64,000 bases of DNA from Corynebacterium frankenforstense DSM 45800 (GTDB lineage: Bacteria > Actinomycetota > Actinomycetes > Mycobacteriales > Mycobacteriaceae), in NCBI RefSeq assembly GCF_001941485.1, contig NZ_CP009247.1, positions 62,001 through 126,000 on the forward strand, given 5' to 3'. Numbering within the stretch: position 1 is the stretch's first letter; every line of letters begins with the position of its first letter. Shown here one piece after another: positions 18,216 through 36,534 of the stretch. Below the pieces are notes generated by a model that saw nothing but the letters and a program-made list of their open reading frames with translations, ran no database searches and was not told the DNA's origin. Both the position numbers and the translations under genes were made by a program.

Positions 18216-19838
18216 TCAGGCCCAGCGGGAGGTGTCCAGGCCGTAGGGGTTGTCCGGGTCGTCGACCGGGAGGTCCTGGACCTGTTCGCTGTCGAGCTGG
18301 AGGACGCGCGGGGAGCCGTTGAAGGCCAGGGAGATGCGGAGGGTGCCGTCGGTGGTGTCGACGATGAAGGCCGAGTGGAACATGACCCGAGATCCCGGGG
18401 GGATCGTCAGAGTCTTCCCTTCGCGCGGGCGGTTGCCCGAGGGGTGCTCCGTATAGAACTCGATTCTGGGGTTGCGATCGTCGGGCATCGCATTGACGAA
18501 CGAGATGTCGACGTAGTCACTGGCGGTCCCGTTCTCAAGCGACCAGGTCCCGGAGTCGCGCCAGCAGGACACGCCTGCATCGTTGGCGACGGAGCAGACG
18601 ACGGGGACTCCTCCGGCTTCAGTGCGGAAATTCCGGTCCTCGATGTCGAGCCAGGCGTCTTCGAGCGGGGCCGCAGAGTGGACGTTGCCGTAGGGCAAAG
18701 GGACCTTCTTGTGGAAGGGCGAGTCGTCGCTGAGCGCGGCGGTGTCGAAGTTGATGCGTCCGTTGGCGAGTGGAGGCTCGTCGGGATCGCCGGCGCCCGC
18801 GGGAGTGTAGGGGACGGTGAGGAAGGGGTCCTCCATGTTGCGGTAGGTGTTGTAGCTCAAGGTGACCTCGTCGGGGCGGGTCCGGCGGACCTCGCCGAGC
18901 TGCTGGTAGACGCTCATGTCGAAGTCAGCGAGGTGGTCGCCGGTGAAGAACACGACGGCTGTGCGCGTCGGGTTGAACGCGGGCTCGGGGTCCGATCCGG
19001 TCGGGCTGCCGACCAGGGTGACCCAGCTCAGCGGGGCGCAGGGGTCGAACTGGTTGTCCACCAGGCGCAGGTTGTTCACGTGTGTGAAGCCGCTGTCTGC
19101 CAGCGGCAGCTCGCCGATGGAGAGGAACGGCCCGAGTTCGGTCTCCGAGAGGTCGAGGTCCGCCGCCTCGCAGGTGTCCGGGGCCTCGTCGCCACCGCCG
19201 ACGTCGATGGTCGCGGTCTGGCCGGTGTCGGGGTCGGTCCACTGGCTCCAGCCGGGATCCTCGCCGGCGGGGACGCGGTAGGCGCCCACGCCGGGCAGGG
19301 TCTCGCCGGGCTCGACGATCTGGTCCTCGGGGGCGGCCTCGACGAGGGTGCCGCACGCCGGTGTGGCCCTGGTGCCGTTGACGGTCTGCAGGTTCATCGT
19401 CGGCGGCGTGGTCTCGCGGAAGTCGACCGGGGAGTCGCCGTTGTTGCGGAAGGTGACCTTCATGAGCACCAGCTCGGTGTCGCCTGGGGCGCCGGAGGTG
19501 CCGGAGGTGGCGGCGTCCTCGTCGTCCCCGCTGCTCGTGCGGGGCTCGGCGAGGCAGCCGGTGATCGCTTCGATGGGGACACCGCCGAGGGCGGAGTGGT
19601 AGCCGCCCATGGACTCCTCCGCCTCGGCCGGGTCCGGCTTGTCGACCTCGTCGACGCGGACCTCGAGGTCGCCGAGGGAGACGTAGTCGCCGATGCCGGG
19701 CATCTTGCCGGAGCCCTGGGCGAAGATCGACGGCTCGAGGATCTTGCGCGAGAACGCCGTGGTGGCGAGCATGCCGAACACGACGAGGAGGATCGCGATG
19801 ATCGCGAGCATGACACGGTTGCGGCGGGTTTTCAGCAC
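18216..19838 (-). CDS. Large exported protein, paralogue of 7554 and 19940
   Basis: A 540-residue protein beginning with GTG. Residues about 9-29 form a hydrophobic signal anchor (VMLAIIAILLVVFGMLATTAF) without a lipobox, so it is probably tethered by its N-terminus with the rest outside. The shared family blocks are MPGIGDYVSLGDLEVRVDEV (about 46-65), 'CEAADLDLSETELGPFL', 'NQFDPCAPLSWVTL', 'AVVFFTGDHLADF' and 'LPYGNVHSAAPLED'. It is the second of a tandem pair with 19940, which has the same promoter sequence. Function unknown. Conserved Cys pairs suggest an extracytoplasmic disulfide-bonded domain. Confidence 0.75.
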   Translation of the reverse strand: MLKTRRNRVMLAIIAILLVVFGMLATTAFSRKILEPSIFAQGSGKMPGIGDYVSLGDLEVRVDEVDKPDPAEAEESMGGYHSALGGVPIEAITGCLAEPRTSSGDDEDAATSGTSGAPGDTELVLMKVTFRNNGDSPVDFRETTPPTMNLQTVNGTRATPACGTLVEAAPEDQIVEPGETLPGVGAYRVPAGEDPGWSQWTDPDTGQTATIDVGGGDEAPDTCEAADLDLSETELGPFLSIGELPLADSGFTHVNNLRLVDNQFDPCAPLSWVTLVGSPTGSDPEPAFNPTRTAVVFFTGDHLADFDMSVYQQLGEVRRTRPDEVTLSYNTYRNMEDPFLTVPYTPAGAGDPDEPPLANGRINFDTAALSDDSPFHKKVPLPYGNVHSAAPLEDAWLDIEDRNFRTEAGGVPVVCSVANDAGVSCWRDSGTWSLENGTASDYVDISFVNAMPDDRNPRIEFYTEHPSGNRPREGKTLTIPPGSRVMFHSAFIVDTTDGTLRISLAFNGSPRVLQLDSEQVQDLPVDDPDNPYGLDTSRWA

Positions 19839-19844
19839 GTTTTC

Positions 19845-19850
19845 AGCTTA
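19845..19850 (-). promoter_or_regulatory. -10 box of leaderless transcript for the 19838 gene
   Basis: On the reverse strand GATAAGCTGAAAACGTG runs into the GTG start at 19838; TAAGCT is the -10 box with a 6-nt spacing. The same block with one change precedes the paralogue at 21616, so the promoter duplicated with the gene. Confidence 0.55.
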
Positions 19851-19939
19851 TCCGGTGCCGGCGTCCAGGTGCAGGGTTGCGGGGAACGGTGCCCGGAGGC
19901 GGGACTGCACGTAGGTGACGGGGCCGGTCGTTTACCGCC

Positions 19940-21616
19940 TCACGGCTCCGGGGTCTCGGTGGCCTCCCGTGACTTGTGGTGCGGCCAGCGGGAGAGATCC
20001 AGGTTGTAGGGGTTGGTCTGGTTCTCGATGGTGGCGACCTGCGCGCGTTCGGAGTCGAGCTGGAGCATGTACTGGACGCCCATGCGTGCGACGAAGATGC
20101 GCACGATGCCACCGCGGGTGTCGACGAGGAGGGTCCGGCGAAGGAGGGCCATGGAGTCCGACGGGATGTCGAACGCGTCGCTCGAGAACCCGTCCGGTTC
20201 GCCGGCCGCGGACCCGGGCTCCCTGCCCTCGAGGTCGAGGCCGTAACTGCCGCGCTCGTATCCGGTCTTGGTGAGGTCGGCGGTGATGCTGTCGGTCTCC
20301 GTGCCGTCGGGCAGCGTCCAGGTCCCGGATTCCCTCCTGCAGGTGACGCCCGGCTCCGCGGCGAGAGAACAGAAGACGGAGAGACCGTGCGTCTGTGCGC
20401 GGAAGTAGCGCTCGTACCGGCCGAGGTCGGCCTGCCGGAGGGGCGTGGCGGAGTGGACGTTGCCGTAGGGCAACGGTGAGTTAAAGGCGGTGCCGCCGAG
20501 AGCACCGATCACTTTCGCGAATTCGAAGTCGACGTGCTCGTCCGCGCCGTCCGTGGAGGGGTCGACCAGGCCGTCCGCGTCGTAGGTGTCTTCGTTGCCG
20601 GCCTTGTCGGTCACGGTCACCGAACCGTCGTCGTCACGGTGCACGGACACGCTGTCGCGGTAGACGGGGGAATCGAAGGGAGCGACGTGGTCTCCGGTGA
20701 AGAACACGACGATATGACTCAAGTCGGTGTCACCGCTTTCCCTCGCTTCGGAGTCCGACGATCCGCTGAGGAGAGCCCAGCTCAGCTCGGCGCACGGGTC
20801 GAACTGGTTGGAGTCCACCTGAAGATCGGTAATCAATTCCGGGTACTGGCCCCCCTCCGCCAGGGGCAGCGTGTTGACGGCGAGGAAGTTGCCCAACTCG
20901 GTCTCCATCAGGTCGACGTCGGAGTTCTCGCAGGTGCCGGGGACCTCGTCGCCGCCGCCGATGTCGGTGGTGGCGCTCTGACCGGTCGAGGGATCGGACC
21001 AGCGGACCCAGCCGGGCTCGGAGCCGGCGGGGACGTCGACGACGACGGCGCCGGGGATGGAGTCGCCGGGCTGGAGGACCTGGTTCTCGGCGTCGACGTC
21101 GGCGAGGATCTCCGTCAAGGGCGCGGCGCGGGTGCCGTCGGCGGTCTGCACGTTGACCGAAGGTGGGGTGATCTCGTGGAAGTCGACCGGGGAGTCGCCG
21201 TTGTTGCGGATGTCGACCTTGATGACGGTCAGGTCGGAGCCGCTGCCGGAGCTGCCACCGGAATTGCTGTCATTTGATCCGCTGCCACCGGAACCACCGC
21301 CGCCGGCTCCGTCGTCGCCGCGCCGTTCGAAGAGGTCGTCGACATTCTCCACGGCCTTCCCACCGAGGACCGTGCGGTAGTCGGCGGTGGCCTCCTTCAC
21401 ACCGGCGGCGTCCCGCTTGTCGACCTCGTCGACGCGGACCTCGAGATCCCCCAGCGAGACGTAGTCGCCGATGCCGGGCATCTCGTCGGAGCCGAGGGCG
21501 AAGACGTCGGGGTCGAGGACCTTGCGCGAGAACGCCGTGGTGGCGAGCATCCCGAGCAGGACGAGGAGGACCGCGATGATCGCGATCAGGACACGGTTCC
21601 GGCGGTTCTGCAGCAC
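19940..21616 (-). CDS. Large exported protein, paralogue of 7554 and 18216
   Basis: A 558-residue protein with an N-terminal signal anchor (about residues 9-29: VLIAIIAVLLVLLGMLATTAF) nearly identical to its neighbour. It carries MPGIGDYVSLGDLEVRVDEV, then a Gly/Ser/Asp linker (about 105-125), 'CENSDVDLMETELGNFL', 'NQFDPCAELSWALL', 'IVVFFTGDHVAPF' and 'LPYGNVHSATPLRQ'. The strong identity of the first 70 residues against weaker similarity later suggests a duplication followed by divergence of the outer domain. It starts with GTG immediately after a -10 box. Function unknown. Confidence 0.75.
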   Translation of the reverse strand: MLQNRRNRVLIAIIAVLLVLLGMLATTAFSRKVLDPDVFALGSDEMPGIGDYVSLGDLEVRVDEVDKRDAAGVKEATADYRTVLGGKAVENVDDLFERRGDDGAGGGGSGGSGSNDSNSGGSSGSGSDLTVIKVDIRNNGDSPVDFHEITPPSVNVQTADGTRAAPLTEILADVDAENQVLQPGDSIPGAVVVDVPAGSEPGWVRWSDPSTGQSATTDIGGGDEVPGTCENSDVDLMETELGNFLAVNTLPLAEGGQYPELITDLQVDSNQFDPCAELSWALLSGSSDSEARESGDTDLSHIVVFFTGDHVAPFDSPVYRDSVSVHRDDDGSVTVTDKAGNEDTYDADGLVDPSTDGADEHVDFEFAKVIGALGGTAFNSPLPYGNVHSATPLRQADLGRYERYFRAQTHGLSVFCSLAAEPGVTCRRESGTWTLPDGTETDSITADLTKTGYERGSYGLDLEGREPGSAAGEPDGFSSDAFDIPSDSMALLRRTLLVDTRGGIVRIFVARMGVQYMLQLDSERAQVATIENQTNPYNLDLSRWPHHKSREATETPEP

Positions 21617-21705: not shown

Positions 21706-22887
21706 TCAGGCGACGCGCTCGCCCGCGAGGTAGGTCGCCGCGGTGACCGGCATGCCGGGGCGGTAGGCCAGGTCGATCGCCGTGGCCGAGCGCAGCACGT
21801 GCAGGTTCGCGGCCGCACCCTCGACCAGCGTGCCCACGGCCGGGCGGCCCTGGGAGTCACGCCCGTCGCCGACATTCTGGCGTCGCAGCGCCACCGCACC
21901 GCCGTGGGTGCCCGCGGCGATCGCCTCGTCCAGGGAGAGGTGCTGCTGGAGCACCGCCGTGGTCACGCAGAAGTTCATGCTCGACGTGTACGAGGTGCCG
22001 GGGTTGAGGTTGCTGGCGATGGCCACCGTCGCACCCGCGTCGATCAGCCGGCGCGCAGGGGCCAGCGGCATGCGCGTCGACAGGTCGCAGGCGGGCAGGA
22101 TCGTCGCGACCGTCTTCGAGGCGGCCAGCGCCTCGACGTCGGCGTCGGTGAGGAAGTTGACGTGGTCGACGCTGGCGGCGTCGTAGTTCACCGCGAGGCT
22201 CACCCCGGGCCCCTCGCCGAGCTGGTTGCCGTGCACGCGCACGCCCAGCCCCTTGGCCTTGCCTGCCTCGATGACCCGGCGCGACTGGTCCTCGTCGAAG
22301 GCGCCGCGCTCGCAGAAGACGTCGATCCAGCCGACGTGCGGGGCCACCGCGTCGAGCATCTCGCCGCAGACCAGGTCGACGTACTCGCCGGCGTCGGCTC
22401 CCGGCGGCACCAGGTGCGCGCCGAGGAAGGTGACCTCGTCGACGTGGCGGCCGGCGATCTCGGCGGCCTGCTTCTCGCTGGCCGTGTCCAGCCCGTAGCC
22501 CGTCTTGGTCTCCAGGGTGGTCGTGCCGCCGGCGCGGGCGGCCGCGACGCGACCGGCCACCAGCTCGTCGAGGCGCTCCGCCCCGGCCGAGCGGGTCGCC
22601 TCCATGGTCACCGCGATGCCGCCGGCGGCGTACTCGCCGCCGGACATGCGGGCCTCGAACTCCTCGGCGCGGTTGCCGTCGAAGACCATGTGGGTGTGCG
22701 AGTCCACCCAGCCGGGCAGCACGGCCGCCCCGCCGAGGTCCTCGGCCCGGTCGGCCTCGGGGGCCTTGGCGGCCTCGCCGATCCAGGTGATCACGCCGTC
22801 TTCGGCGACGATCGCGGCGTCGTTGAGGGTGCCGCGCTCGGAGACGGTGCGCAGCTCGCCGATGTTGGTGAACAGGGTGGAGGTCAT
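21706..22887 (-). CDS. hutI: Imidazolonepropionase
   Basis: A 393-residue metal-dependent amidohydrolase that opens 4-imidazolone-5-propionate to N-formimino-L-glutamate, the third step of histidine catabolism. Key elements: 'LPGWVDSHTHMVFDG' (metal-binding HxH, about residues 55-69), 'LETKTGYGLD', 'GAHLVPPGA', 'RVHGNQLGEGPG' with a metal His (about 220), 'DHVNFLTD' and 'ASNLNPGTSYTSSM'. Length is normal (about 400). GAAAGG precedes the ATG. It is the last gene of the hutU-acd-CoA transferase-yjiH-hutI run. Confidence 0.95.
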   Translation of the reverse strand: MTSTLFTNIGELRTVSERGTLNDAAIVAEDGVITWIGEAAKAPEADRAEDLGGAAVLPGWVDSHTHMVFDGNRAEEFEARMSGGEYAAGGIAVTMEATRSAGAERLDELVAGRVAAARAGGTTTLETKTGYGLDTASEKQAAEIAGRHVDEVTFLGAHLVPPGADAGEYVDLVCGEMLDAVAPHVGWIDVFCERGAFDEDQSRRVIEAGKAKGLGVRVHGNQLGEGPGVSLAVNYDAASVDHVNFLTDADVEALAASKTVATILPACDLSTRMPLAPARRLIDAGATVAIASNLNPGTSYTSSMNFCVTTAVLQQHLSLDEAIAAGTHGGAVALRRQNVGDGRDSQGRPAVGTLVEGAAANLHVLRSATAIDLAYRPGMPVTAATYLAGERVA

Positions 22888-22963
22888 GGGGTCCTTTCTG
22901 GGGTTCGCGGTAGCTGGAAGGAAGCGGTGACGAGAGTCAGAGGAAGAAGGTCACGCCTACGGT

Positions 22964-24340
22964 CTATCCGCCGGTGACGAGGAACGCGACCGGGACGGTG
23001 ATGATCAGGGTCAGCACCACGCGCTGGAACCAGATGACCACCATGTGCCAGATCTTGATCGGGATGTCGGTGCCCAGCACGGCGGGGATCATCGAGGAGA
23101 AGAAGAAGATCTGCGAGATCGAGACGACGGCGACGATGAAGCGGAGCGTCTCGCTCGGGGCGTCGGCGACCAGGGTGGCCGGCAGGAAGAGCTCGGACAG
23201 GCCGATGGCCAGTGCCTCGGAAGCCAGCTGGGGGTCCGGGACCTGCAGCGCCCAGGTGAACGGCAGGAAGAGGAAGCCCAGCCAGGTGAACACCGGGGTG
23301 TAGAAGGCCAGCGTCAGGCCGATGAAGCCGACCGACATGATGCCCGGCAGGATCTGCATGGTCATCAGCACGCCGTCGGCGAAGTTGACCCACAGCACGC
23401 GCAGCACGCCGGGGCAGCGCTTGAGCACCTCCTCGGCCTCGCCCCAGGCGCGGCGCAGGCGGTTGGACGTGACCTGCTCCTCCGGATCCGGGTGGGAGCC
23501 GGGGTAGTACTCGTCCGGAATGCGCGACAGCGGCGGGATCCACACGATGATCGCGCTGACGATGAAGGTGATGATGAACGTCGCGGCGAAGTAGATGCCC
23601 CAGACCGGCATCAGGTCCAGGGTGCGTGCGATGACGACCATGAAGGTCACCGAGGCCGTGGAGAAGCACGAGGTGATGATCGCGGCCTCACGCGCCGTGT
23701 AGCCGCCGGCCTTGTAAACGCGGTTGGTGATCAGCAGGCCCAGCGAGTAGCTGCCCACGAAGGAGGCCACCGCGTCGACCGCGGAGCGCCCGGGCACCCG
23801 GTAGGCCGGTCGCATGATCCGCTGGACGAGCACCCCGATGAACTCCATCAGACCGAAGCCGACGAGCAGCCCCAGGAACACGGAGCCGACCGGGACGAGC
23901 AGGCCGACCGGGATGACCAGCTTGTCCATCAGGAAGGGACCGAGGTCCTCGCGGAAGAGGAAGGCCGGGCCGAAGTTGAACACGAGCATCGTCGCGACGA
24001 CAGAGCCCAGGACGTTGAGGAAGGCGAAGACCCGGCGGGCCATCGACTGCTTCCAGCGCCCGGAGGCGAACTGGAAGACGGTGCCGGCCAGGATGATCGC
24101 GTAGGCGACGAACTTGTTGGCGTCGCCGAGCACGTCGTCGATGATCGTCACCAGGTGGTCCAGGAGGATCGAGTTGGAGCCCTGGTAGGGGAACGGCACG
24201 AAGAAGGCGAAGATGCCGATCGCGCTGTAGACGAAAAACCGCCAGCGCCCACGCACGGGCTTGTCCATGCGGCGCGCGCCGGGCGCCTGCGTGGGCGCCT
24301 CCTCGGGGCGTACCGGATCAGCGGTGGAGTTCTCGGACAT
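22964..24340 (-). CDS. YjiH family (nucleoside-recognition GATE domain) membrane protein, probable hut permease
   Basis: A 458-residue polytopic membrane protein with about 10-11 hydrophobic helices. 'FFVYSAIGIFAFFVPFPYQG' starts the first helix at about residue 34, and 'SYSLGLLITNRVYKAGGYTAREAAIITSCFSTAS' contains the GATE-type polar signature. YjiH-like proteins are often found beside amino-acid catabolic genes. Here its place between a CoA transferase and hutI suggests import of an imidazole compound such as histidine, urocanate or imidazolepropionate (inference). The nearest upstream gene ends 30 nt before its ATG. Confidence 0.75.
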   Translation of the reverse strand: MSENSTADPVRPEEAPTQAPGARRMDKPVRGRWRFFVYSAIGIFAFFVPFPYQGSNSILLDHLVTIIDDVLGDANKFVAYAIILAGTVFQFASGRWKQSMARRVFAFLNVLGSVVATMLVFNFGPAFLFREDLGPFLMDKLVIPVGLLVPVGSVFLGLLVGFGLMEFIGVLVQRIMRPAYRVPGRSAVDAVASFVGSYSLGLLITNRVYKAGGYTAREAAIITSCFSTASVTFMVVIARTLDLMPVWGIYFAATFIITFIVSAIIVWIPPLSRIPDEYYPGSHPDPEEQVTSNRLRRAWGEAEEVLKRCPGVLRVLWVNFADGVLMTMQILPGIMSVGFIGLTLAFYTPVFTWLGFLFLPFTWALQVPDPQLASEALAIGLSELFLPATLVADAPSETLRFIVAVVSISQIFFFSSMIPAVLGTDIPIKIWHMVVIWFQRVVLTLIITVPVAFLVTGG

Positions 24341-24370
24341 GGTGTCCTCCGTTTCGGGGGATGGGCCGGG

Positions 24371-25546
24371 TCAGCGTTCGGCGGAACCGGACTCGTCGGG
24401 GACGCGCTCAGGCTCGGCGAGCCATTCGGCGATGAGGTCGTTGTGCTCCCCGAGCCCCGGGGCCGGCCGCGGGGCGACGGAGCCGTGCAGCTTGATCGGG
24501 GAGGCGAGGGTGCGGAAGCCGTCCGACTCCTCGGCGACGACGCCGCGTTCGCGGCCCAGCTCGCCGGTGAGGGCGTCGTGGACGTCGTGCACGCGCGACG
24601 TCGGGACGCCGTGCTCGGCGAGGTGCTTGAGCGCCTCGTCGGCGGTGTAGTCCGCCAGCTTCTCCTCGAAGAGGCGGCGGACCTCGTCGCGGCGCTCGCG
24701 GCGCGCGGCGTTCGTGTTGAAACGGGGGTCGTCGACCATGTAGCCCAGGTCGAGGGCCTCGGCGACGCGGCCGAAGAGGGTCTCGTTGGTCACGGCGATG
24801 ACGACCTCGCCGTCCTTGGCCGCGTAGGTGCTGAACGGCACGGTCATCGCGTGGTCGTTGCCCACGGCGGTGGGGGTCTCGTCCTCGTAGAGCTCACGCA
24901 TGGCCACCGATTCGAGGACGGAGACCAGCGAGTCGTACATCGCCAGGTCGACGTGCTGGCCGCGACCGGAGTGGTTGCGCTCGAGCACCGCGCCGAGGGT
25001 GGCGATCGCGGCGTAGAGGCCCGGGATCAGGTCGCCGAGGCTGACGCCGGTGCGCGTCGGGCGGCCGCCGGGCCAGCCGGTGACGGACATCAGGCCGCTC
25101 ATCGCCTGCGCGACGAGGTCGTAGGCGGGCGCCTTGCTCATCGAGCCGGTCTGGCCGAAGCCGCTGATGCTCGTGATGATCAGGCCGGGGTTGGCCTCGA
25201 GCAGGTCCTTCGGGGCGATGCCGAGGCGCTCCATGACGCCGGGACGGAAGTTCTCCACCAGCACGTCGGCGCGCTTGGCCAGCTCGATGAGGGTCTCGCG
25301 GTCCTCGTCGGACTTCAGGTCGAGGGTGATGCCCTTCTTGGTGCGGTTGAACAGGCGGTAGTAGGCGGAGTGTCCCTCCCAGAACGGGCCGAACTCGCGG
25401 GAGTCGTCGCCCCAGGGGGTCTCGATCTTGATCACGTCCGCACCGAGGTCGGCGAGGATGGAGGCGCAGAACGGTCCGGCGAGGACCCGGGACATGTCGA
25501 GGACGCGGATGCCGTCGAGCGCGCTGCGGTGGTCGGCGGTGGTCAT
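24371..25546 (-). CDS. CaiB/BaiF family (class III) CoA transferase in the hut operon
   Basis: A 391-residue class III CoA transferase, which moves CoA between carboxylic acids through an aspartyl-CoA intermediate. 'LDGIRVLDMSRVLAGPFCASILADLGADVIKIE' is the family N-terminus, 'HSAYYRLFNRTKKGITLDLKS' and 'VLVENFRPGVMERLG' bind CoA, and the catalytic Asp lies in 'HVDLAMYDSLV' (D about 198 or 203). It has no known role in the standard hut pathway. Together with the acyl-CoA dehydrogenase upstream it resembles the CaiB/CaiA pair of carnitine metabolism. GAAAGGAGA precedes the ATG. A strong hairpin separates it from the dehydrogenase gene. Confidence 0.9.
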   Translation of the reverse strand: MTTADHRSALDGIRVLDMSRVLAGPFCASILADLGADVIKIETPWGDDSREFGPFWEGHSAYYRLFNRTKKGITLDLKSDEDRETLIELAKRADVLVENFRPGVMERLGIAPKDLLEANPGLIITSISGFGQTGSMSKAPAYDLVAQAMSGLMSVTGWPGGRPTRTGVSLGDLIPGLYAAIATLGAVLERNHSGRGQHVDLAMYDSLVSVLESVAMRELYEDETPTAVGNDHAMTVPFSTYAAKDGEVVIAVTNETLFGRVAEALDLGYMVDDPRFNTNAARRERRDEVRRLFEEKLADYTADEALKHLAEHGVPTSRVHDVHDALTGELGRERGVVAEESDGFRTLASPIKLHGSVAPRPAPGLGEHNDLIAEWLAEPERVPDESGSAER

Positions 25547-25591
25547 GGTGGTCTCCTTTCGGTCGGCCGCGGGCGGGCCCGATGCCGTAGG

Positions 25592-25632
25592 GCCCGCCGG
25601 CCCGGACTGCGGTGCGGTCCGGGCCGGCGGGC
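25592..25632 (-). terminator. Very stable hairpin between the acyl-CoA dehydrogenase and CoA transferase genes
   Basis: GCCCGCCGGCCCGGAC (25592-25607) and GTCCGGGCCGGCGGGC (25617-25632) give a perfect 16-bp stem with a 9-nt loop, 12 nt after the dehydrogenase stop. There is no U-tract, so an mRNA-stabilising or attenuating role within the operon is as likely as termination. Confidence 0.65.
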
Positions 25633-25644
25633 TCGAGGGGGTGT

Positions 25645-26811
25645 CTAGACGAAGGCGGACTCTCCGGTGATGGAGCGGGCGACGATCAGCTGGTTGATGT
25701 CGTAGGTGCCCTCGTAGGAGTAGAGCGCCTCGGCGTCGCAGAAGATCTTGGCCATGTGGTAGTCGGTGACCAGGCCGTTGCCGCCCTGCACCTCGCGGCC
25801 GAGGGCGACGGTCTCGCGCATCAGGCGGGTGACCTGGGCCTTGGCCAGGGCGGAGTGCTCGTTGTGGTCGGCGTCGCGGTCCTGCATGCGGTTGAGGGTG
25901 TACATCATCGACTCGGAGGCGATGAGGTTGCCCAGCATGGTGGCCAGCTTCGACTGGTTGATCTGGAAGGAGCTGATCTTCCTGCCGAACTGCTCGCGCT
26001 CGTCGGCGTAGTCCAGGGTCGCGTCGAGCGCCCCCATCTGCAGGCCGACGGCCTGCCAGCCCACGGTGGCGCGGGCGGACTTGAAGACCTTGTTGGTGTC
26101 CTTGAAGGTGTTGGCGCCCTCGAGCTTGTCGGCGTCCGGCACGAAGCAGTCGGTCAGGTGGATCTCCGCGTTCTGCACGGCGCGCAGCGCGATGCGGTTC
26201 TCCATCAGCTCCGCGCGGTAGCCCTCCGCGGAGGTGTCGACGACGAAGCCCTTGACCTGGTCGTCGGCGATGTCGCGGGCGTAGATGACCGCGTAGTCGG
26301 ACCAGGTGGCGTTGCCGATCCAGCGCTTGGTGCCGTTGAGCTTCCAGCCGCCGTCGACCTTCTCGGCGGTGGTGCGCATGCCCTTGGCCACGTCGGAGCC
26401 GGCCTCCGGCTCGGTGATCGCCAGCACGCCGGTCTTGCGCACGGCGTAGAGGTCCGGCAGCCAGCGCTGCTTCTGCTCCTCGCTGCCGAGCAGCTCGATT
26501 GAGCCGGTGAACAGGCCGTCGTGGCCGCTGAAGAACGTGCCCACCGAGGCGTCTGCGCGGTGGATCTCGGCGGTGACCAGGCCGGCGAGCAGGCGGCTGC
26601 GGCCCTTGTGGCGCACCAGGCTGATGATGTCGAGGTCCGCGATGGAGTCCATCAGCTCGTGGGGGAACTCCCAGCGGTTCCAGTAGTCCGCGGCGACGGG
26701 CTTGACGGTGTTCTGCGCCCAGTCGCGCACCTTCAGCAGGATCTCGCGCTCCTCGGCGGAGAGCTCCTGCTCGAATCCGTAGAAGTCGCCCTCGGGGTAA
26801 CGTCCGGCCAT
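25645..26811 (-). CDS. Acyl-CoA dehydrogenase in the hut operon (glutaryl-CoA dehydrogenase-like, but Arg missing)
   Basis: A 388-residue flavoprotein that introduces an alpha,beta double bond into an acyl-CoA. 'VLAITEPEAGSDVAKGMRTTA' (FAD/substrate loop), 'LNGTKRWIGNATWSDYAVIYAR', 'REQFGRKISSFQINQSKLATML' and the catalytic-Glu block 'ALYSYEGTYDINQLIVARSITG' (E about 368) match the glutaryl-CoA dehydrogenase branch. The position of the glutarate-binding Arg of that branch (GYRSAMS) reads SVGTFFS, so glutaryl-CoA is unlikely to be the substrate. Its place after hutU and before a CoA transferase suggests action on an imidazole-acyl-CoA (inference). GAAAGGA precedes the ATG at 26811. Confidence 0.88.
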   Translation of the reverse strand: MAGRYPEGDFYGFEQELSAEEREILLKVRDWAQNTVKPVAADYWNRWEFPHELMDSIADLDIISLVRHKGRSRLLAGLVTAEIHRADASVGTFFSGHDGLFTGSIELLGSEEQKQRWLPDLYAVRKTGVLAITEPEAGSDVAKGMRTTAEKVDGGWKLNGTKRWIGNATWSDYAVIYARDIADDQVKGFVVDTSAEGYRAELMENRIALRAVQNAEIHLTDCFVPDADKLEGANTFKDTNKVFKSARATVGWQAVGLQMGALDATLDYADEREQFGRKISSFQINQSKLATMLGNLIASESMMYTLNRMQDRDADHNEHSALAKAQVTRLMRETVALGREVQGGNGLVTDYHMAKIFCDAEALYSYEGTYDINQLIVARSITGESAFV

Positions 26812-26929
26812 TGTCTCGGTCCTTTCTCTGCGGCTTGTCGTCTGCTGCTGTTGTCTTCGTGTCTCTCGGTTCTTCTTCGGGTTCGCGCCACCGGCGCGGT
26901 GCTCGCCGCGTCGCCGGGGCAGTGCCCCA

Positions 26930-27019
26930 CCGACGCGATGCACCACCGCGGCGCGGCGCCGCCCAGGCGGCGCCTGGGCCGCAGCCGGCGCACCCGACGT
27001 GGGGCACGCGCGGCGTCGG
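26930..27019. repeat. GC-rich extragenic palindromic element in the hutU-acd gap
   Basis: The 216-bp gap after hutU contains an element with outer arms CCGACGC (26930) and GCGTCGG (27013-27019) and an internal near-palindrome GGCGCCGCCCAGGCGGCGCC. The right end CGCGGCGTCGGCAATC (27009-27024) is identical over 16 nt to the right end of the 10915-11020 element, and ACCACCGCGGCG is shared. It may weaken or time expression of the genes after hutU. Confidence 0.5.
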
Positions 27020-27027
27020 CAATCGGA

Positions 27028-28731
27028 TCAGTCGCGCTGGTTGAAGTCCATCGGCACGCGCACGCCGCGCTCGTCGGCGACCTCCTTGGCGCGGGAGTAG
27101 CCGGCGTCGTAGTGGCGCAGCACGCCCATGGCGGGGTCGTTGGTGAGCACGCGCTCGAGCTTCTGGGCGGCCAGCTCGGTGCCGTCGGCCAGCGAGACCT
27201 GGCCGGCGTGGATGGAGCGGCCCATGCCCACGCCGCCGCCGTGGTGGATGGACACCCAGGTCGCACCGGAGGAGGTGGCGGTCAGGGCGTTGAGCAGCGG
27301 CCAGTCGGCGATGGCGTCGGAGCCGTCGATCATCGCCTCGGTCTCGCGGTAGGGGCTGGCCACGGAGCCGGAGTCGAGGTGGTCGCGGCCGATGGCGATC
27401 GGCGCGGAGATCTTGCCCTCGGCGACGAGCTCGTTGAAGCGCACGCCGGCCTTCTGGCGCTCGTCGTAGCCGAGCCAGCAGATGCGGGCGGGCAGCCCCT
27501 CGAACTCGACGTACTCCTCGGCGGCGTCGAGCCAGCGGTGCAGGTGCTCGTTGTCCGGGAAGAGCTCCTTGAGCGCCTCGTCGGTGACCTTGATGTCGGC
27601 CGGGTCGCCGGAGAGCGCCACCCAGCGGAAGGGCCCGAGGCCCTCGCAGAACAGCGGGCGGATGTAGGCGGGCACGAAGCCGGGGAACTCGAAGGCGCGG
27701 TTGTAGCCGGCGTGGCGGGCCTCGTCGCGGATGGAGTTGCCGTAGTCGAAGACCTCGGCGCCCTCGTCCTGGAACTCGACCATGGCCTGGACCTGCATGG
27801 CCATCGACTCGCGGGACTTCTTGGTGAAGGTCTCCGGGTCGTCGGCGGCCTCGCGGTGCCAGTCCTCGACGGTGATCTCGCTGGGCAGGTAGCTCAGGGG
27901 ATCGTGGGCGGAGGTCTGGTCGGTGACGACGTCGACGGTGATCTCGCCGGCGCGGTGGCGGTTGAGCAGCTCGGGGAAGACGTCGGCGGCGTTGGCGACG
28001 ATGCCGATGGAGACGGCCTCCTTGTCCTCCTTGGCCTGGCGGGCGCGGGCGACGGCCTCGTCGAGGTCGGTGTAGACCTCGTCGAGGTAGCGCTTGGACT
28101 GGCGGCGCTTCAGGCGGGTCTCGTCGACGTCGGCGATCAGGCAGACACCGCCGTTGAGGGTGACGGCCAGGGGCTGGGCGCCGCCCATGCCGCCGCAGCC
28201 GCCGGTCAGGGTCAGGGTGCCGGCGAGCGTGCCGTTGAAGCGCTTCTGGGCGACGGCGGCGAAGGTCTCGTAGGTGCCCTGCAGGATGCCCTGGGTGGCG
28301 ATGTAGATCCAGGAGCCGGCGGTCATCTGGCCGTACATGATCAGGCCCTCGGCCTCGAGCTTGCGGAACTCCGGCCAGTTGGCCCAGTCGCCGACGAGGT
28401 TGGAGTTGGCGATGAGCACGCGCGGGGCCCACTCGTGGGTGCGCAGCACGCCGACGGGCTTGCCGGACTGCACGAGCAGGGTCTCGTCCTCCTCGAGGTC
28501 CTTGAGGGTCTCGACGATCTTGTCGAAGGCCTCCCAGCTGCGTGCGGCCTTGCCGGTGCCGCCGTAGACGACGAGGTCCTCGGGGCGCTCGGCGACCTCG
28601 GGGTCGAGGTTGTTCATCAGCATGCGCAGCGGCGCCTCGGTCTGCCAGCTCTTGGCGCTGAGCTCGGTGCCGCGCGGGGCGCGCACGGTGCGCGGGCCGG
28701 ACTGGGCGGTGTCGGTGTTCTGCTCGGTCAC
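27028..28731 (-). CDS. hutU: Urocanate hydratase
   Basis: A 567-residue NAD+-dependent urocanase (family about 555), cytosolic, converting urocanate to 4-imidazolone-5-propionate. Family signatures include '[23 protein letters not shown]', '[22 protein letters not shown]', the NAD-binding '[17 protein letters not shown]' (about 168-184), the active-site '[17 protein letters not shown]' with its Cys, and '[19 protein letters not shown]'. It starts with GTG (28731) behind a strong GAGGAGG. It is the first gene of the five-gene run; the HutR-like site at 28855-28870 lies in its promoter region. No histidase gene accompanies it here. Confidence 0.96.
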
Positions 28732-28795
28732 TGTTCCTCCTCGGGTCTGCGACATCCGGGCGCGGCCGGTGCGGCGCGCTATGTCGTGGATCAAC

Positions 28796-28823
28796 TGTGA
28801 CCGTGACGGTAACGGCGGTCACA
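28796..28823. promoter_or_regulatory. Inverted repeat TGTGACC-(14)-GGTCACA upstream of hutU
   Basis: Seven-base arms flank 14 nt containing a further ACCGTGACGGT palindrome. The TGTGA/TCACA ends recall CRP/GlxR sites, but the spacing is longer than the standard 6 nt. It may bind a global regulator or another repressor. Confidence 0.35.
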
Positions 28824-28854
28824 TGTGGCGCGGTAGATCTGTCGAGGGGGTGGT

Positions 28855-28870
28855 GTCTGGTATCCGAGAC
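28855..28870. promoter_or_regulatory. Putative HutR operator upstream of hutU
   Basis: GTCTGGTATCCGAGAC matches the site between hutR and hutG (GTCTCGCATCCGAGAC) at 14 of 16 positions. The core TCTGGTATCCGAGA resembles the TCTGwwATwCCAGA motif I recall for HutR of Corynebacterium resistens. It lies about 125 bp before the hutU start. Confidence 0.65.
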
Positions 28871-29007
28871 AGTGCAGGCAGGCGCAGTTAAATTGACGAC
28901 GTCCCGGTGGTCGCCGGCGGCGGTGCCGTGCGGGCGGGTGCGGGGAGGCGTGGGCGCCGGGGCCGGGTGCGGTGTCGGTCGCGGGGTTGGGCTGCTGGGC
29001 ACGCGCC

Positions 29008-29889
29008 TCAGCGCGCGCCGAAGACGGCCGCGCCAAGCGCGGCCGAGGCCTCCCGCAGGCTGCGCACCAGGCCCGCGCGGCCGGCCTGGTCGAGGCTGTC
29101 GAGCGGGTGGGTGACCGTGATCGCGGCGGCCGGGCGGCCCAGGTGGTCGCGCACGGGCACGGAGACGGACTCCTGGCCGCGGGCGACGGCCTCGCGCTCG
29201 AGGGCGAAGCCGCGGGTGCGGATCTCGCCGAGCTCCGCGAGCAGCCGGCGCAGCGTGGGGCGGGTGGTGCCGGTCGATGCGGCGAAGTCGCCGGTGGCGG
29301 GGGTGGGGTTGAGGTCTGCGCCGGCGCTGTGTTCGGCGGCAGGCGCGGCGGCGTCCGCGTCGCCCGCCGACGACGGTGCGGGAACCGGGGCGGGGCCCGA
29401 CGGGACGTCGGGAAGGCTGGCCAACACGGCCTTGACCTGGGCGTCGTTGAGCACGGAGAGCATCGCCAGGCCGGAGGCGGTGCGCAGGGCGGGAAGCCGC
29501 ACGCCGACGTCGGTGATCAGCGCCTGCGCGCCGGGGGAGCGGACCTCGACCAGGTAGACGATCTCGGGGCCGACCAGCCGCGAGAGGTGCCCGGAGCCGC
29601 CGGCCTGCACGGCCAGCTCGCGCAGCCGCTTCTGGCCGAGGCGCACCAGCGGCTGCTGGGTCGTGTAGGCCTGGGCCATCTCGTAGGCGGCCACGCCGAG
29701 TCCGTAGGTCTGCTCGCCGGGGATGTGCATGACGAATCCGGCGGCCTCCATCTCGCGCAGCAGGTGGTAGGTGCTCGAGCGTGGCAGGTCGAGCTCGGCG
29801 CGGATGCGCGCGGCGGAGACGGGTACGTCGATTCGCGAGAGCAGCGCGAGGATGCGCAGCGTGTTCCGGGCGGCGGGGACCTGGGCCAT
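29008..29889 (-). CDS. hutR: IclR family transcriptional regulator of the hut genes
   Basis: A 293-residue IclR-type protein. The N-terminal winged helix 'ARNTLRILALLSRIDVPVSAARIRAELDLPRSSTYHLLREME' is at about residues 7-48. The effector domain contains 'SGHLSRLVGPEIVYLVEV', 'TASGLAMLSVL' and the terminal 'PVRDHLGRPAAAITVTHP'. A roughly 45-residue Ala/Pro/Ser-rich insertion (about 165-210) splits the effector domain. HutR identity is inferred from its place between hutU and divergent hutG and from the matching operators. The operator at 29897-29912 lies 7 bp upstream of the start, implying autoregulation. Confidence 0.85.
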   Translation of the reverse strand: MAQVPAARNTLRILALLSRIDVPVSAARIRAELDLPRSSTYHLLREMEAAGFVMHIPGEQTYGLGVAAYEMAQAYTTQQPLVRLGQKRLRELAVQAGGSGHLSRLVGPEIVYLVEVRSPGAQALITDVGVRLPALRTASGLAMLSVLNDAQVKAVLASLPDVPSGPAPVPAPSSAGDADAAAPAAEHSAGADLNPTPATGDFAASTGTTRPTLRRLLAELGEIRTRGFALEREAVARGQESVSVPVRDHLGRPAAAITVTHPLDSLDQAGRAGLVRSLREASAALGAAVFGAR

Positions 29890-29896
29890 GGTGCAA

Positions 29897-29912
29897 GTCT
29901 CGCATCCGAGAC
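29897..29912. promoter_or_regulatory. Putative HutR operator between hutR and hutG
   Basis: GTCTCGCATCCGAGAC is an inverted repeat with 6-bp arms (GTCTCG/CGAGAC) in the 78-bp divergent region. It shares 14 of 16 bases with the site before hutU. Confidence 0.65.
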
Positions 29913-29954
29913 GCGCCGGTGGGTCGAGGCGCGGCGCGCCGGGTGCGCGGGAAC

Positions 29955-29960
29955 TAGGGT
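29955..29960 (+). promoter_or_regulatory. -10 box of leaderless hutG transcript
   Basis: TAGGGT ends 7 nt before the hutG ATG at 29968, and no Shine-Dalgarno is present. Confidence 0.5.
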
Positions 29961-29967
29961 GCGCGGC

Positions 29968-31080
29968 ATGTACACCCCCTTTGACCCCGCAGACTGGACC
30001 GGACGCGACGACGGACCCGGGCGCGAGCACGCCCGCTGGCACTCGGTGATCGAGGGCCTCGACCCGCGGGAGGCGGGTTCGAGTTCTGGCTCGGGTGTCG
30101 GGGGCGCCTCCGGTTCCGGTGCCGGGGCCGCCGGGGTGGCGCTGCTCGGCTTCGAGAGCGACGAGGGCGTGGAGCGCAACGGCGGGCGCCGCGGCGCGGC
30201 GGCCGGGCCCGCGGCGATCCGCTCGGCGCTGGCCAGCCTCGCCGTCCACGACGAGGTGGCTCGCGCCGACGCCGGCACCGTGCGCACCGAGGACCCGGAC
30301 CTGGAGGGCGCGCAGCGCGAGCTCTCCGACGCCGTGCGTGACCTCGTGCGTGCCGGGCGCCTGGTGGTCGCGCTGGGCGGCGGCCACGAGATCGCGTGGG
30401 CGACGCACCGCGGGCTCTTCGAGGCGGTGACCGGTTCGGGTGCCGCAGGTTCGGGAGCGGGCGATTCCGGCGCGGGCGACGCCGCGCCGGCACCGGCGGG
30501 GGAGCGCGGGCGCATCGCCGTGGTGAACCTGGACGCGCACTTCGACCTGCGCGCCGCGGACCGCCCGACCTCGGGCACGCCGTTCCTGCAGATCGCGCGC
30601 CTGCATGGCGCGGGCGGTCCCGCGGCGGACGCCCCGATCCCGGACTCGGCGCCCGCTGAGCAGTCCGAATCACACGACTTCGACTACACGGTGCTCGGCA
30701 TCTCGGAGCCGAACAACACCCGAGTCCTCTTCGAGACCGCCGAGGCTCTCGGCGTGCGCACCGTGCTCGACGACGAGCTGGCGGAGATGACCCCGCAGCA
30801 GGCCGGCGAGCTGGTCGCGAAGGCCGTGGCGGACGCGGATCACGTGCACCTGAGCATCGACCTCGACGGGCTGCCGGCCTCGGTCGCGCCCGGTGTGAGC
30901 GCGCCGGCGGCGGTCGGTGTCAGCCTGGCGCACTACCGGGCGATGGCGCGCGCGGCGGCGGCCTCGGGCAAGCTGCGCCTGGTCGACGTCGCCGAGCTCA
31001 ACCCCGAGTTCGACGTGGACAACCGCACCGCGAAGGTCGCTGCCCGTCTGATCAGCGACATCACGAGCGTCGAGGGCTGA
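29968..31080 (+). CDS. hutG: Formimidoylglutamase (arginase family)
   Basis: A 370-residue ureohydrolase that splits N-formimino-L-glutamate into glutamate and formamide, closing the urocanate route. Manganese ligands are visible in 'VALGGGHEIAW' (about 131-141), 'VVNLDAHFDLR' (about 184-194) and 'LSIDLDGLPASVAPGVSAPA' (about 294-313), with the catalytic Glu in 'DVAELNPEFD'. Two Gly/Ser/Ala-rich insertions (about 37-56 and 151-173) make it longer than the usual roughly 315 residues; both lie in loops. It is transcribed away from hutR. Its convergent neighbour is the rbs operon. Confidence 0.93.
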   Translation: MYTPFDPADWTGRDDGPGREHARWHSVIEGLDPREAGSSSGSGVGGASGSGAGAAGVALLGFESDEGVERNGGRRGAAAGPAAIRSALASLAVHDEVARADAGTVRTEDPDLEGAQRELSDAVRDLVRAGRLVVALGGGHEIAWATHRGLFEAVTGSGAAGSGAGDSGAGDAAPAPAGERGRIAVVNLDAHFDLRAADRPTSGTPFLQIARLHGAGGPAADAPIPDSAPAEQSESHDFDYTVLGISEPNNTRVLFETAEALGVRTVLDDELAEMTPQQAGELVAKAVADADHVHLSIDLDGLPASVAPGVSAPAAVGVSLAHYRAMARAAAASGKLRLVDVAELNPEFDVDNRTAKVAARLISDITSVEG

Positions 31081-31162: not shown

Positions 31163-31540
31163 CTAGAACGGCACCCCGCTGCGCAGGATGACGTTGGCGT
31201 AGGGCGTGGTCTCGCCGGTGCGGACCACGAAGCTGGCGTCGGCGACCCGGGCCTTGAGCTCCTCGTGGTCGACCTCGTCGAGCTCGACCTCGGCGGGCAC
31301 GATCGCGCGGATCTCCTCTGGGGCCTGGGTGGCGATGGTGGCGTGCTCGATCTCGAGCACGTCGGTCAGCGCGTCGAGGACGTCGACGAAGCGGGGGATG
31401 CCGAAGACGATCGCGAGGTCGATGACGGGCACGTCCGCGGGCACGGGCAGGCCGCAGTCGGCGATGACGAAGGTGTCGGTGTGGCCCAGCCGGGCGAGGC
31501 GTCCGGCCAGCGGGGCGTTGAGGATGCCCTTCTTGAGCAT
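31163..31540 (-). CDS. rbsD: D-ribose pyranase
   Basis: A 125-residue RbsD/FucU family protein that interconverts pyranose and furanose forms of ribose so that ribokinase can use it. 'MLKKGILNAPLAGRLARLGHTD' is the family start, with the catalytic His (about 20), 'VIADCGLPVP' follows, and the C-terminal 'VVRTGETTPYANVILRSGVPF' is typical. The start is 11 nt from the rbsB stop, so it is the last gene of rbsRACBD. No rbsK is present in the operon. Confidence 0.95.
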   Translation of the reverse strand: MLKKGILNAPLAGRLARLGHTDTFVIADCGLPVPADVPVIDLAIVFGIPRFVDVLDALTDVLEIEHATIATQAPEEIRAIVPAEVELDEVDHEELKARVADASFVVRTGETTPYANVILRSGVPF

Positions 31541-31551
31541 GGTGTTCTCCT

Positions 31552-32517
31552 TTACTGGTGCTCGGCGACGTTCTCGGCGGTCACGGTGACCACGTCGACG
31601 GGCAGGACGTCGGCGACCTCCTTGCCCTGCAGCAGCAGGGCGGCCTGGTCGACGGCGGCCACGCCGAGCTGGTCGGGCTGCTGGGCGATGGTGGCGGCCA
31701 TGGTGCCGGCGGCCACCGCCTCAAGGCCCTCGAGGGTGCCGTCGAAGCCGACGACGGCGATGTCGTCACCGGCGCGCCCGCCGACGGCCTCGATCGCGCC
31801 GAGCGCCATCTCGTCGTTCTCGGCGAAGATGCCCACGACGTCGGGGTTGGCCTGCAGCAGGTTGGACGCGACGTCGAGACCCTTGGTGCGGTCGAAGCCG
31901 GCGGTCTGCATGCCGACGATCTCGATGTCGGGGTACTTGGCGATGCCCTCCTTGAAGCCCTGCCCGCGGTCGCGCGAGGACGACGAGCCGGCGATGCCCT
32001 GCAGGACGATGATCTTGCCCTTGCCACCGATGGCCTTCGCCATGGCGTCGGCCGCCTGGCGCCCGCCGGCGATGTTGTCGCTGGCCACGTAGGAGGCCAG
32101 CTCGCCGCCGTTGGAGGTGCGGTCGACGGCGACGACGGGGATGTCGGCCTGGTTGAGCGCGGTCACGGAGTTGGCCACGGCGTCGGAGTCGACGGGGTTG
32201 GCGATGACCACTCCGGTGTGCATGGCCGCGGCGTTGTTGAGCTGGTCGGCCTGCTTGAGGGCGTCGTCGCCGGCGTCCTGGATATTCAGCGGGATGCCGA
32301 GCTCCTCGGCGCGTTGTTGCGCGCCGTCGCGCACCTGCACGAAGAACGGGTTGGACTGCGTGGACAGCGCCAGCGTGATCTCCTGCTCGGCCTCGCCGCG
32401 CCCGCATGCGCTTAACGACGTCGCGAGTGCCACGGCGGCGACCAACGCTGCGGCCCGGCGGGCGGGACGGGCTGCGCCCGCCCGACGGCCGCGTGACCGG
32501 TTGATGAACGTGAACAT
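31552..32517 (-). CDS. rbsB: Ribose ABC transporter substrate-binding lipoprotein
   Basis: A 321-residue type 1 periplasmic-binding-fold protein. The signal peptide has an arginine-rich start (NRSRGRRAGAARPARR) and lipobox SLSAC (Cys about 38). The mature part begins 'ITLALSTQSNPFFVQVRDGAQQRAEELG' and includes 'VVAVDRTSNGG', 'YVASDNIAGGRQAADAM' and 'VVGFDGTLEGLEAV', the ribose-binding pattern (hinge Asp and Arg). As an actinobacterial lipoprotein it is anchored outside the membrane and delivers ribose to RbsAC. Confidence 0.93.
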   Translation of the reverse strand: MFTFINRSRGRRAGAARPARRAAALVAAVALATSLSACGRGEAEQEITLALSTQSNPFFVQVRDGAQQRAEELGIPLNIQDAGDDALKQADQLNNAAAMHTGVVIANPVDSDAVANSVTALNQADIPVVAVDRTSNGGELASYVASDNIAGGRQAADAMAKAIGGKGKIIVLQGIAGSSSSRDRGQGFKEGIAKYPDIEIVGMQTAGFDRTKGLDVASNLLQANPDVVGIFAENDEMALGAIEAVGGRAGDDIAVVGFDGTLEGLEAVAAGTMAATIAQQPDQLGVAAVDQAALLLQGKEVADVLPVDVVTVTAENVAEHQ

Positions 32518-32550
32518 GTTGTGCTCCTCTGTCCTTTCCGGGTGCGGTCG

Positions 32551-33555
32551 CTACTGGGCGATGGTCTTGTTGCGGATGACATCGAAGCCGACGGCGGCGG
32601 CGATGACGATGCCGATGACGATCTGCTGCCAGAAGGAGGAGACGTTGAGCAGGTTCAGGCCGTTGCGGATGACGGCGAGCAGCAGCGCGCCGACGAAGGT
32701 GCCGGTGGCCTTGCCACGGCCGCCCGACAGCGACGCGCCGCCGATGACGACGGCGGCGATGGCGTCGAGCTCGTAGCTGACACCGGCCTGCGGCTGGGCC
32801 GAGGACAGGCGGGCGGTCATGACCAGGCCCGCCCAGGCGGCGAAGAGCCCGGAGAGGGTGTAGACGGCGATGAGGATCTGGCGCACGGGCAGGCCGGACA
32901 GGCGGGCGGCCTCGATGTTGCCGCCGATGGCGTACATGGAGCGGCCGAGCACGGTGCGCGAGAGCACGAACCAGCAGATCAGACCGGCCAGGAGCATCAT
33001 CACGATCGGCATCGGCAGGAAGCCGACGTCGGTGCCCATCCAGTTGACGGCGTCCGGGCTGGGCTGCGGGGAGCCCTCGGAGATGACCAGGGTCAGGCCG
33101 CGGGCGATGGACATCATCGCCAGGGTGGCGATGAAGGCGGGCAGTTTGCCGTAGGCGATGGAGGCGCCGGCGATCGCACCGCAGGCCAGGCCGGTGAGCA
33201 GGCCGAGGATCAGGGTGATCCAGCCGGGTAGGGCCATCTCGGCGAAGGAGTATGCGGTGACCATGCCGCCGAGGGCGGCCACTGCGCCGACGGACAGGTC
33301 GATGCCGCCGGTGACGATGACGAAGGTCATGCCGAAGGCCAGGATGGCGATGGCGGCGGCCTGCACGCCGACATTGATGAGGTTGTCGACGCTCAGGAAG
33401 TGCGGGGTGGCGATGACCAGGATGACGATCAGGGCGATCAGGCCGACGAGGGCGCCGTTGTCCATCGCCCAGTTGCCCAGGCGGCGGCCGAACGAGGGGG
33501 ACTTCTCCGCTGCGGCGGTGGCGCCGGAGCCGGGGGAGGCTGTGGTGGTGGTCAT
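32551..33555 (-). CDS. rbsC: Ribose ABC transporter permease
   Basis: A 334-residue BPD_transp_2 (AraH/RbsC) permease with 8-10 transmembrane helices. 'FGMTFVIVTGGIDLSVGAVAALGG' is the family signature, 'RTVLGRSMYAIGGNIEAARLSGLPV' is the cytoplasmic coupling region, and 'DAIAAVVIGGASLSGGRGKATGTFVGALLL' follows. The hydrophilic first 30 residues are Thr/Ser-rich. ATG overlaps the rbsA stop (ATGA), which indicates translational coupling. Confidence 0.95.
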   Translation of the reverse strand: MTTTTASPGSGATAAAEKSPSFGRRLGNWAMDNGALVGLIALIVILVIATPHFLSVDNLINVGVQAAAIAILAFGMTFVIVTGGIDLSVGAVAALGGMVTAYSFAEMALPGWITLILGLLTGLACGAIAGASIAYGKLPAFIATLAMMSIARGLTLVISEGSPQPSPDAVNWMGTDVGFLPMPIVMMLLAGLICWFVLSRTVLGRSMYAIGGNIEAARLSGLPVRQILIAVYTLSGLFAAWAGLVMTARLSSAQPQAGVSYELDAIAAVVIGGASLSGGRGKATGTFVGALLLAVIRNGLNLLNVSSFWQQIVIGIVIAAAVGFDVIRNKTIAQ

Positions 33556-35156: not shown

Positions 35157-35204
35157 CGTTCACCTCCTGGGGTGGTGGCTGATGGTGGGGAGGGGTGTCG
35201 GTGT

Positions 35205-36314: not shown

Positions 36315-36348
36315 GTCGACTCCTCGTCTCCCGTGCCACGGGGGTGGC

Positions 36349-36364
36349 GTGCAAACGTTTGCAC
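36349..36364. promoter_or_regulatory. LacI-type operator of the rbs operon
   Basis: GTGCAAACGTTTGCAC is a perfect 16-bp palindrome with the CAAACGTTTG core typical of LacI-family operators. It lies 34 bp before the rbsR start, next to a TTGACT element and a TAGCGT box on the reverse strand. Confidence 0.8.
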
Positions 36365-36534
36365 TAGAGTCAACGCTAGCCAGGATGTGGGGCGGGGGCA
36401 AGAGGCGGGGGTGGGATGAGATCGGATCGTGACCGGGGGAGGGTGGGGGAGATTTCTTTAACTTGCCCGGTAAGCTTGTTGGCGCGAATGGGCGCGATTT
36501 GCATCCCGGGATCTACTTGTGTTGGAGGTGGGCG

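Follow-up and report, generated by a model that had tools for sequence, protein, structure and literature searches.

The window examined here, a stretch of 64,000 nucleotides from the closed genome of Corynebacterium frankenforstense DSM 45800 (2,604,152 bases; the window comprises bases 62001–126000 of contig NZ_CP009247.1), carries a hut locus in which genes for an acyl-coenzyme A (CoA) dehydrogenase (ACD) and a CoA-transferase stand among the hut genes. A single minus-strand run holds, in order, hutU (urocanate hydratase, 27028 to ~28731; TIGR01228, 894.3 bits against a cut-off of 375), the ACD gene (25645–26811), the gene for a class III (CaiB/BaiF) CoA-transferase (caiB, 24371–25546), the gene for a YjiH/Gate-domain permease (22964–24340; PF07670, the Pfam Gate family, 50.0 bits) and hutI (imidazolonepropionase, 21706–22887). 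The hutU start at 28731 (GTG) was picked for the AGGAGG upstream of it, the open reading frame (ORF) itself opening at 28794. Upstream of the run, on the same strand, lies a gene for a HutR-like regulator of the IclR family (29008–29889; PF01614 and PF09339), and beyond it the divergent plus-strand gene hutG (formimidoylglutamase, 29968–31080; TIGR01227, 249.5 bits, cut-off 229.15). While hutU and hutG score above their profile cut-offs, hutI is marginal, its 297.9 bits lying 0.25 bit short of the TIGR01224 cut-off of 298.15, with 73–76% identity to the hutI of relatives. Two HutR-type operators are present, GTCTGGTATCCGAGAC at 28855–28870, upstream of the hutU-to-hutI run, and GTCTCGCATCCGAGAC at 29897–29912, between the regulator gene and hutG. 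The profile matches bear out the gene set and positions given in an original prediction made from the DNA alone.

That prediction had also remarked on the lack of a histidase gene (hutH), and this holds genome-wide: a search with PF00221 (aromatic amino acid lyase) gave 0 matches in the host genome, and matches in 5 of 14 known genomes used as a control. Nor did a remnant of hutH emerge from a tblastn comparison of a relative's HutH with window positions 28501–30000, which returned nothing better than E 1.3. In a sample of 201 Corynebacterium genomes, the host included, an ACD orthologue (at least 68% identity; next best 48%) was present in 16, all of which also have hutU. Homologues of hutU occur in 83 genomes of the sample, two of them weak, and PF00221 matches in 80; the probability of such complete co-occurrence would be 2.8e-7 for independent genomes, which these related genomes are not. 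The PF00221 lyase was found in 15 of the 16 ACD carriers, the window's genome being the sole exception. The pair of ACD and CoA-transferase therefore tracks hutU and does not replace hutH. A role as histidase substitute, at which the original prediction hinted, is rejected on account of these 15 genomes and of two others (G060 and G128) that have hutU with neither a PF00221 match nor an ACD orthologue; since the pair comes in addition to hutH in nearly all carriers, it would form an added branch. One relative (G197, locus L040) shows the order hutI-yjiH-caiB-acd-hutU-hutH-iclR-hutG, and because the window's order equals this minus hutH, loss of hutH in the window's lineage is the simpler reading. 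The strain appears to have kept the ACD/CaiB branch and lost its histidase. Without hutH it should use urocanate, and not histidine, by the hut pathway and, if the interpretation developed below is right, imidazolepropionate as well.

Conservation of the neighbourhood was assessed by an ACD alignment scan of genome contigs, which required conserved peptides and so missed distant relatives. It gave 68 loci. After removal of eight repeat records (L046–L050, L053, L066 and L071) there were 29 distinct loci of the hut type, 18 from Corynebacterium (the window, L031–L045, L051 and L052) and 11 from other genera (L054–L062, L065 and L069). Neighbouring genes were placed by tblastn too, as the ORF finder missed some, including the window's caiB and IclR-family genes. 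Each of the 18 Corynebacterium loci has caiB and yjiH after the ACD gene, and in 15 of them hut genes lie within the fetched stretch; the remaining three are L043 (C. propinquum), L045 (genome G052) and L051 (C. pseudodiphtheriticum).

Nine loci of the Arthrobacter/Glutamicibacter type encode ACDs of 61–64% identity, with hutU downstream in every case, ~0.1 to 9.4 kb off. This is the sole hutU found in seven of the nine genomes; the genome of L060 contains another copy, 46% identical, and the L069 contig ends inside hutU. A permease of the NCS1 type adjoins the ACD gene in 9/9 of these loci; caiB is present in 8/9 and a gene for a HisC-like aminotransferase in 5/9. The permease belongs to the cytosine/purine/allantoin family, which fits a nitrogen-containing ring substrate. 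The hutH genes of these genomes sit on other contigs than the ACD gene. The original prediction had made its reading depend on the pair recurring at the hut loci of relatives, and the pair does recur there, at the 15 Corynebacterium loci and, with hutU downstream of ACD, at the Arthrobacter-type loci. One record among the latter, L054, is labelled Sporosarcina beigongshangi and has 65% G+C with an ACD nested in Arthrobacter; it may be a mislabelled or contaminated assembly, or a recent transfer.

Two Leucobacter loci (L061 and L062) carry ACD and CaiB without hutU. Their surroundings (L061:87-15923, and L062) encode a second HutH-like lyase, a P450, and glycolate-oxidase-like, L-lactate-dehydrogenase-like and HisC-like aminotransferase proteins, a gene set that would suit imidazolelactate and is a lead only to a possible route. 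The last three of these genes, and the HisC-like aminotransferase genes at five Arthrobacter-type loci, favour an alternative in which the pair, though part of the hut regulon, acts on some other histidine-derived or imidazole acid (imidazolelactate-derived, or a substituted imidazolepropionate), urocanate not being the direct product. We consider this unlikely, as the Corynebacterium modules consist of ACD, CaiB and YjiH only, the sequence starts of the recurring neighbours revealed neither a hydratase nor a dehydratase, and the hutU downstream of ACD in Arthrobacter-type loci is single-copy.

The regulatory sites give a second line of evidence. For C. resistens the HutR motif is stated as GTCTGWWATWCCAGAC, attributed to a 2012 binding study, in a later paper (PMC8222616). 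A shared, degenerate form, GTCTSNNATNNSAGAC, has two sites in the whole host genome, both in the hut locus, and its reversed pattern has 0. The operator was tested independently of the window by counting sites in other genomes, by reversing the pattern and by examining the other ACD homologues. The core pattern gave 38 sites in 32 stretches, where order-one Markov sequences would lead one to expect 1.5. When one mismatch was allowed, 31 of the 37 hut-type loci had an operator within 300 bp upstream of the ACD gene, which becomes 23 of 29 without repeats (Corynebacterium 15/18, others 8/11); none of 46 loci of other ACD homologues had one. Random stretches had an operator in 41 of 3320 cases, these stretches being drawn from the same loci with the true operators included, and the reversed pattern had 0 sites in 11 of 14 genomes and one each in G197, G011 and G203. 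Six loci have no operator directly upstream of ACD: the window and L040, in both of which ACD sits behind hutU, and L034, L061, L062 and L069.

Operators were also found upstream of ACD in the three Corynebacterium loci that have no hut genes nearby. Of the three sites in the C. propinquum genome (G031), one precedes ACD by 109 bp, on contig C4; the other two are on contig C8, one ahead of a YjiH gene and one ahead of hutU. G052 has a single exact site genome-wide, ahead of ACD, and in C. pseudodiphtheriticum (L051) ACD is likewise preceded by an operator. Seven further stretches, around a selection of the other operator sites in four Arthrobacter genomes, placed an operator at the start of hutI in 4/4 and at hutG in two (L124 and L125); L125 also has one upstream of an IclR-family gene beside hutH, and L124 one ~1 kb from hutH. 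Another of the seven, from G203 (L123:5075-8563), carries two operator sites and a third HutR-type regulator gene along with a PF00221 lyase broken into several pieces; it may be what is left of a second cluster. The operators at ACD modules away from hut genes are the best evidence, at the level of sequence, for counting ACD and caiB among the hut genes, and the pair very likely belongs to the hut (HutR) regulon. Conservation across relatives and the operator results together rule out a chance neighbourhood and, so far as sequence comparison goes, confirm that the company of ACD and caiB with hut genes is more than chance.

The protein encoded by the ACD gene belongs to the acyl-CoA dehydrogenase superfamily: it has the N-terminal, middle and C-terminal Pfam domains, and E367 of its YEGT motif, which we take to be the catalytic Glu of ACDs, is invariant (16/16 and 37/37). 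Its nearest solved relatives, by sequence and by Foldseek fold, are the plant short-chain acyl-CoA oxidase ACX4 and glutaryl-CoA dehydrogenases, at 26–42% identity among the Foldseek matches listed. It stays far below the cut-offs of the glutaryl-CoA dehydrogenase profile GlutCoADH_Des (NF045552; 136.8 bits against 470) and of the CaiA profile (NF002885; 107.1 against 540). The Arg of Thermus 2eba (RVDSGLRSFVS) that presumably binds the glutarate carboxylate (human Arg94) aligns with G91, in agreement with the earlier observation that this Arg is missing, and the position is Gly in 29/29 hut-type ACDs. A glutarate pathway is rejected on the strength of the absent Arg and the missed profile cut-offs.

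A maximum-likelihood tree built from 89 ACDs joined all 29 hut-type proteins in one group (95/98), inside which the 18 from Corynebacterium formed a group of their own (100/100). Twelve positions (A76, H84, G91, S95, G96, D98, F101, Y122, V129, I132, A137 and Y173) are invariant in 29/29 hut-type ACDs, and each of these residues occurs in at most 5% of 57 other ACDs. Five of them (G91, S95, G96, D98 and F101) share a single helix (88–108) in an AlphaFold model (predicted local distance difference test score, pLDDT, 87.7) that was used for the fold and helix borders only. Judging from helix periodicity and homology, D98 would face the pocket, and this Asp could contact an imidazole ring. Three Sinomonas proteins, kept apart in the signature count, are a weakly supported sister (86/38) of the hut-type group and share D98 and F101 with it, but not S95 and G96. 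ACDs of this Sinomonas type (L063, L064, L067 and L128–L130) have G95/V96 instead and no operator upstream or nearby; they may resemble an ancestor of the hut-type ACDs or act on a related substrate. Of 394 genomes sampled across the class, 40 had an ACD match passing E 1e-120; among seven short loci from this sample, apart from the window's own genome, three show the Sinomonas-type GVHDGLFTGS and four neither type, and none has an operator within ~4 kb. A plasmid search with ACD matched 1660 records, none at 60% identity or above, the best being an unannotated Arthrobacter plasmid at 56.3%.

The CoA-transferase is of class III (PF02515, 396.8 bits), with D205, which we take to be the catalytic Asp, in 28/28 sequences. 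It reaches no NCBIfam equivalog cut-off, the scores being 132.6 of 413 bits for CaiB, 307.9 of 522 for oxalate, 286.5 of 750 for succinate-glutarate (SucGlutTfsCaiB) and 279.9 of 700 for succinyl-CoA:mesaconate CoA-transferases. If the nearest named relatives were the guide (ACX4 and glutaryl-CoA dehydrogenases for the one protein, oxalate or succinate-glutarate CoA-transferases for the other), the pair might handle an unrelated acyl-CoA, such as that of glutarate or a short-chain acid, and merely be co-regulated with hut. The Gly at the glutarate Arg position and the missed GlutCoADH_Des and SucGlutTfsCaiB cut-offs argue against this, and the operator and hutU linkage would be left unexplained, so that we hold it to be very improbable. 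The permease is a candidate importer. The host genome has one YjiH gene, and it clusters with the G197 copy adjacent to CaiB (99/97); many relatives hold a second copy near hutG. At another place in the host genome, two matches to electron-transfer flavoprotein (ETF) domains adjoin each other. Among the recurring neighbours, judged from sequence starts and not all of them scanned, no ligase or thioesterase was recognised.

The product of an ACD is an alpha,beta-unsaturated acyl-CoA, and urocanate is where the rest of the run begins; the corresponding saturated acid, imidazolepropionate, therefore suggests itself as the substrate. Bacterial oxidation of imidazolepropionate to urocanate was reportedly described decades ago. 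We propose that the permease would import imidazolepropionate and that the CoA-transferase would move CoA to it from urocanoyl-CoA, another acyl-CoA serving for priming. The ACD, a putative imidazolepropionyl-CoA dehydrogenase, would then oxidise imidazolepropionyl-CoA to urocanoyl-CoA, with electrons passing to ETF, and the CoA-transferase would free urocanate while loading the next imidazolepropionate; this enzyme alone can both load substrate and unload product. HutU, HutI and HutG would convert the urocanate to glutamate, and HutR would control the ACD/CaiB branch along with hut. We infer the substrate, the CoA cycle and its direction, as well as HutR binding and the part played by the permease.

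The direction deserves separate consideration, the reaction being reversible in principle. The reductive carnitine system consists of the same enzyme classes, and its CaiB and CaiA activate and reduce crotonobetaine; by analogy, the pair might activate urocanate and reduce it to imidazolepropionate as an electron sink. No dedicated electron-transfer genes were recognised beside the pair, however, its linkage to hutU and permeases suggests that it feeds HutU, and the Arthrobacter relatives are, to our knowledge, aerobes; reduction is therefore a slightly poorer candidate still than an unrelated acyl-CoA. Least probable of all, in our estimate, is that the pair salvages cis-urocanate, a skin photoproduct, by a redox-neutral isomerisation of its thioester to the trans form for HutU. 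HutU is known to act on trans-urocanate and the carriers include strains of human skin or airways, yet Arthrobacter, Glutamicibacter and Leucobacter, which are mostly environmental, carry the pair as well, and isomerisation would be a new activity for ACDs, which are dehydrogenases.

Several observations weigh against oxidation of imidazolepropionate by the pair. ACDs of 45–58% identity exist outside hut loci, where the fold serves other substrates. Kinship among the genomes inflates the co-occurrence figure for ACD and hutU, and no hutU was found near ACD in three Corynebacterium and the two Leucobacter loci. The CaiB-adjacent YjiH copies do not form a clean clade (two changes). As to regulation, the published HutR motif, at up to two mismatches, has no site in the window; the degenerate form was read partly from the window's own palindromes, so that its fit there is not independent; L034, L069 and the Leucobacter loci lack an ACD-upstream operator at up to one mismatch; the G052 hut locus has no exact site, and G197 none anywhere in its genome. 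Both the CoA priming and the fit of an imidazole ring in the ACD are assumptions. Against these points stand the hut loci of relatives, the operators and the pocket signature, which favour the central claim of the original prediction, that the pair feeds urocanate to HutU, shorn of its part as a histidase stand-in. On balance, ACD and CoA-transferase probably constitute an imidazolepropionate branch of the hut pathway, working by the whole mechanism proposed.

Gut microbes make imidazole propionate from histidine, and the compound has been linked to insulin resistance and diabetes. If the branch exists, the unexplained hut-linked genes fall into one pathway, and a two-gene oxidation route would overturn the label 'non-metabolizable' for bacteria and provide enzymes for assay or removal. 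That label is applied to imidazole propionate in a 2025 review (PMC11872695). In the accessible open-access literature, subscription literature lying outside the scope, no paper was found on genes for imidazolepropionate oxidation or on urocanoyl-CoA, nor one reporting the bacterial oxidation itself. With somewhat less assurance than for the branch itself, we think it likely that this is the first gene-level route of bacterial imidazole propionate breakdown: a pair that recycles CoA by way of a new intermediate, urocanoyl-CoA, forming a HutR-controlled second entry to the hut pathway in Corynebacterium and Micrococcales, with the window's lineage, devoid of histidase, maybe living on imidazolepropionate and urocanate made by others.

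Beside hutI, at 18216–21616, are two tandem related genes with DUF4352 and LppP/LprE lipoprotein matches. Adjoining hutG, at 31163–36401, lies a set of genes for a ribose-type ABC transporter with a LacI-type regulator, named from ORF reading. Positions 36001–44000 have 57–60% G+C, against ~70% around them; this low-G+C stretch includes a type I restriction set (HsdM, HsdS and HsdR; 38766–45180), ahead of which a DUF433 gene and a PIN-like gene (36463–37637) resemble a toxin-antitoxin pair.

Among known systems, glutaryl-CoA dehydrogenase and ACX4 share the fold of the window's ACD, which lacks the glutarate Arg and has pocket-helix residues of its own. The CaiB/CaiA carnitine pair likewise combines a class III CoA-transferase with an ACD, and exchanges CoA between product and substrate as we propose for the window's pair; the latter scores far below the CaiB and CaiA cut-offs, and its proposed direction is oxidative, on an imidazole acid. 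Clostridium sporogenes FldA/AcdA also joins a CoA-transferase to an ACD, acting on an aryl-propionate/aryl-acrylate pair. That system is reductive and anaerobic, includes a dehydratase and has phenyl- and indolepropionate as substrates, whereas the window's pair would be oxidative with an imidazole substrate. The C. resistens hut cluster with HutR (PMC3350403, PMC8222616) has the same hutU, hutI, hutG, IclR-family regulator and operator type. The window differs from it in lacking hutH and in having ACD, CoA-transferase and permease built in, three genes that go unmentioned in the accessible C. resistens text (PMC3350403), the cluster figure of which has further genes in grey. Finally, the urocanate reductase UrdA, as described in two papers (PMC11872695, PMC13320830), also interconverts urocanate and imidazolepropionate; UrdA is a flavin reductase that works on the free acids and makes imidazolepropionate, whereas the window's pair would take a CoA route in the opposite direction.

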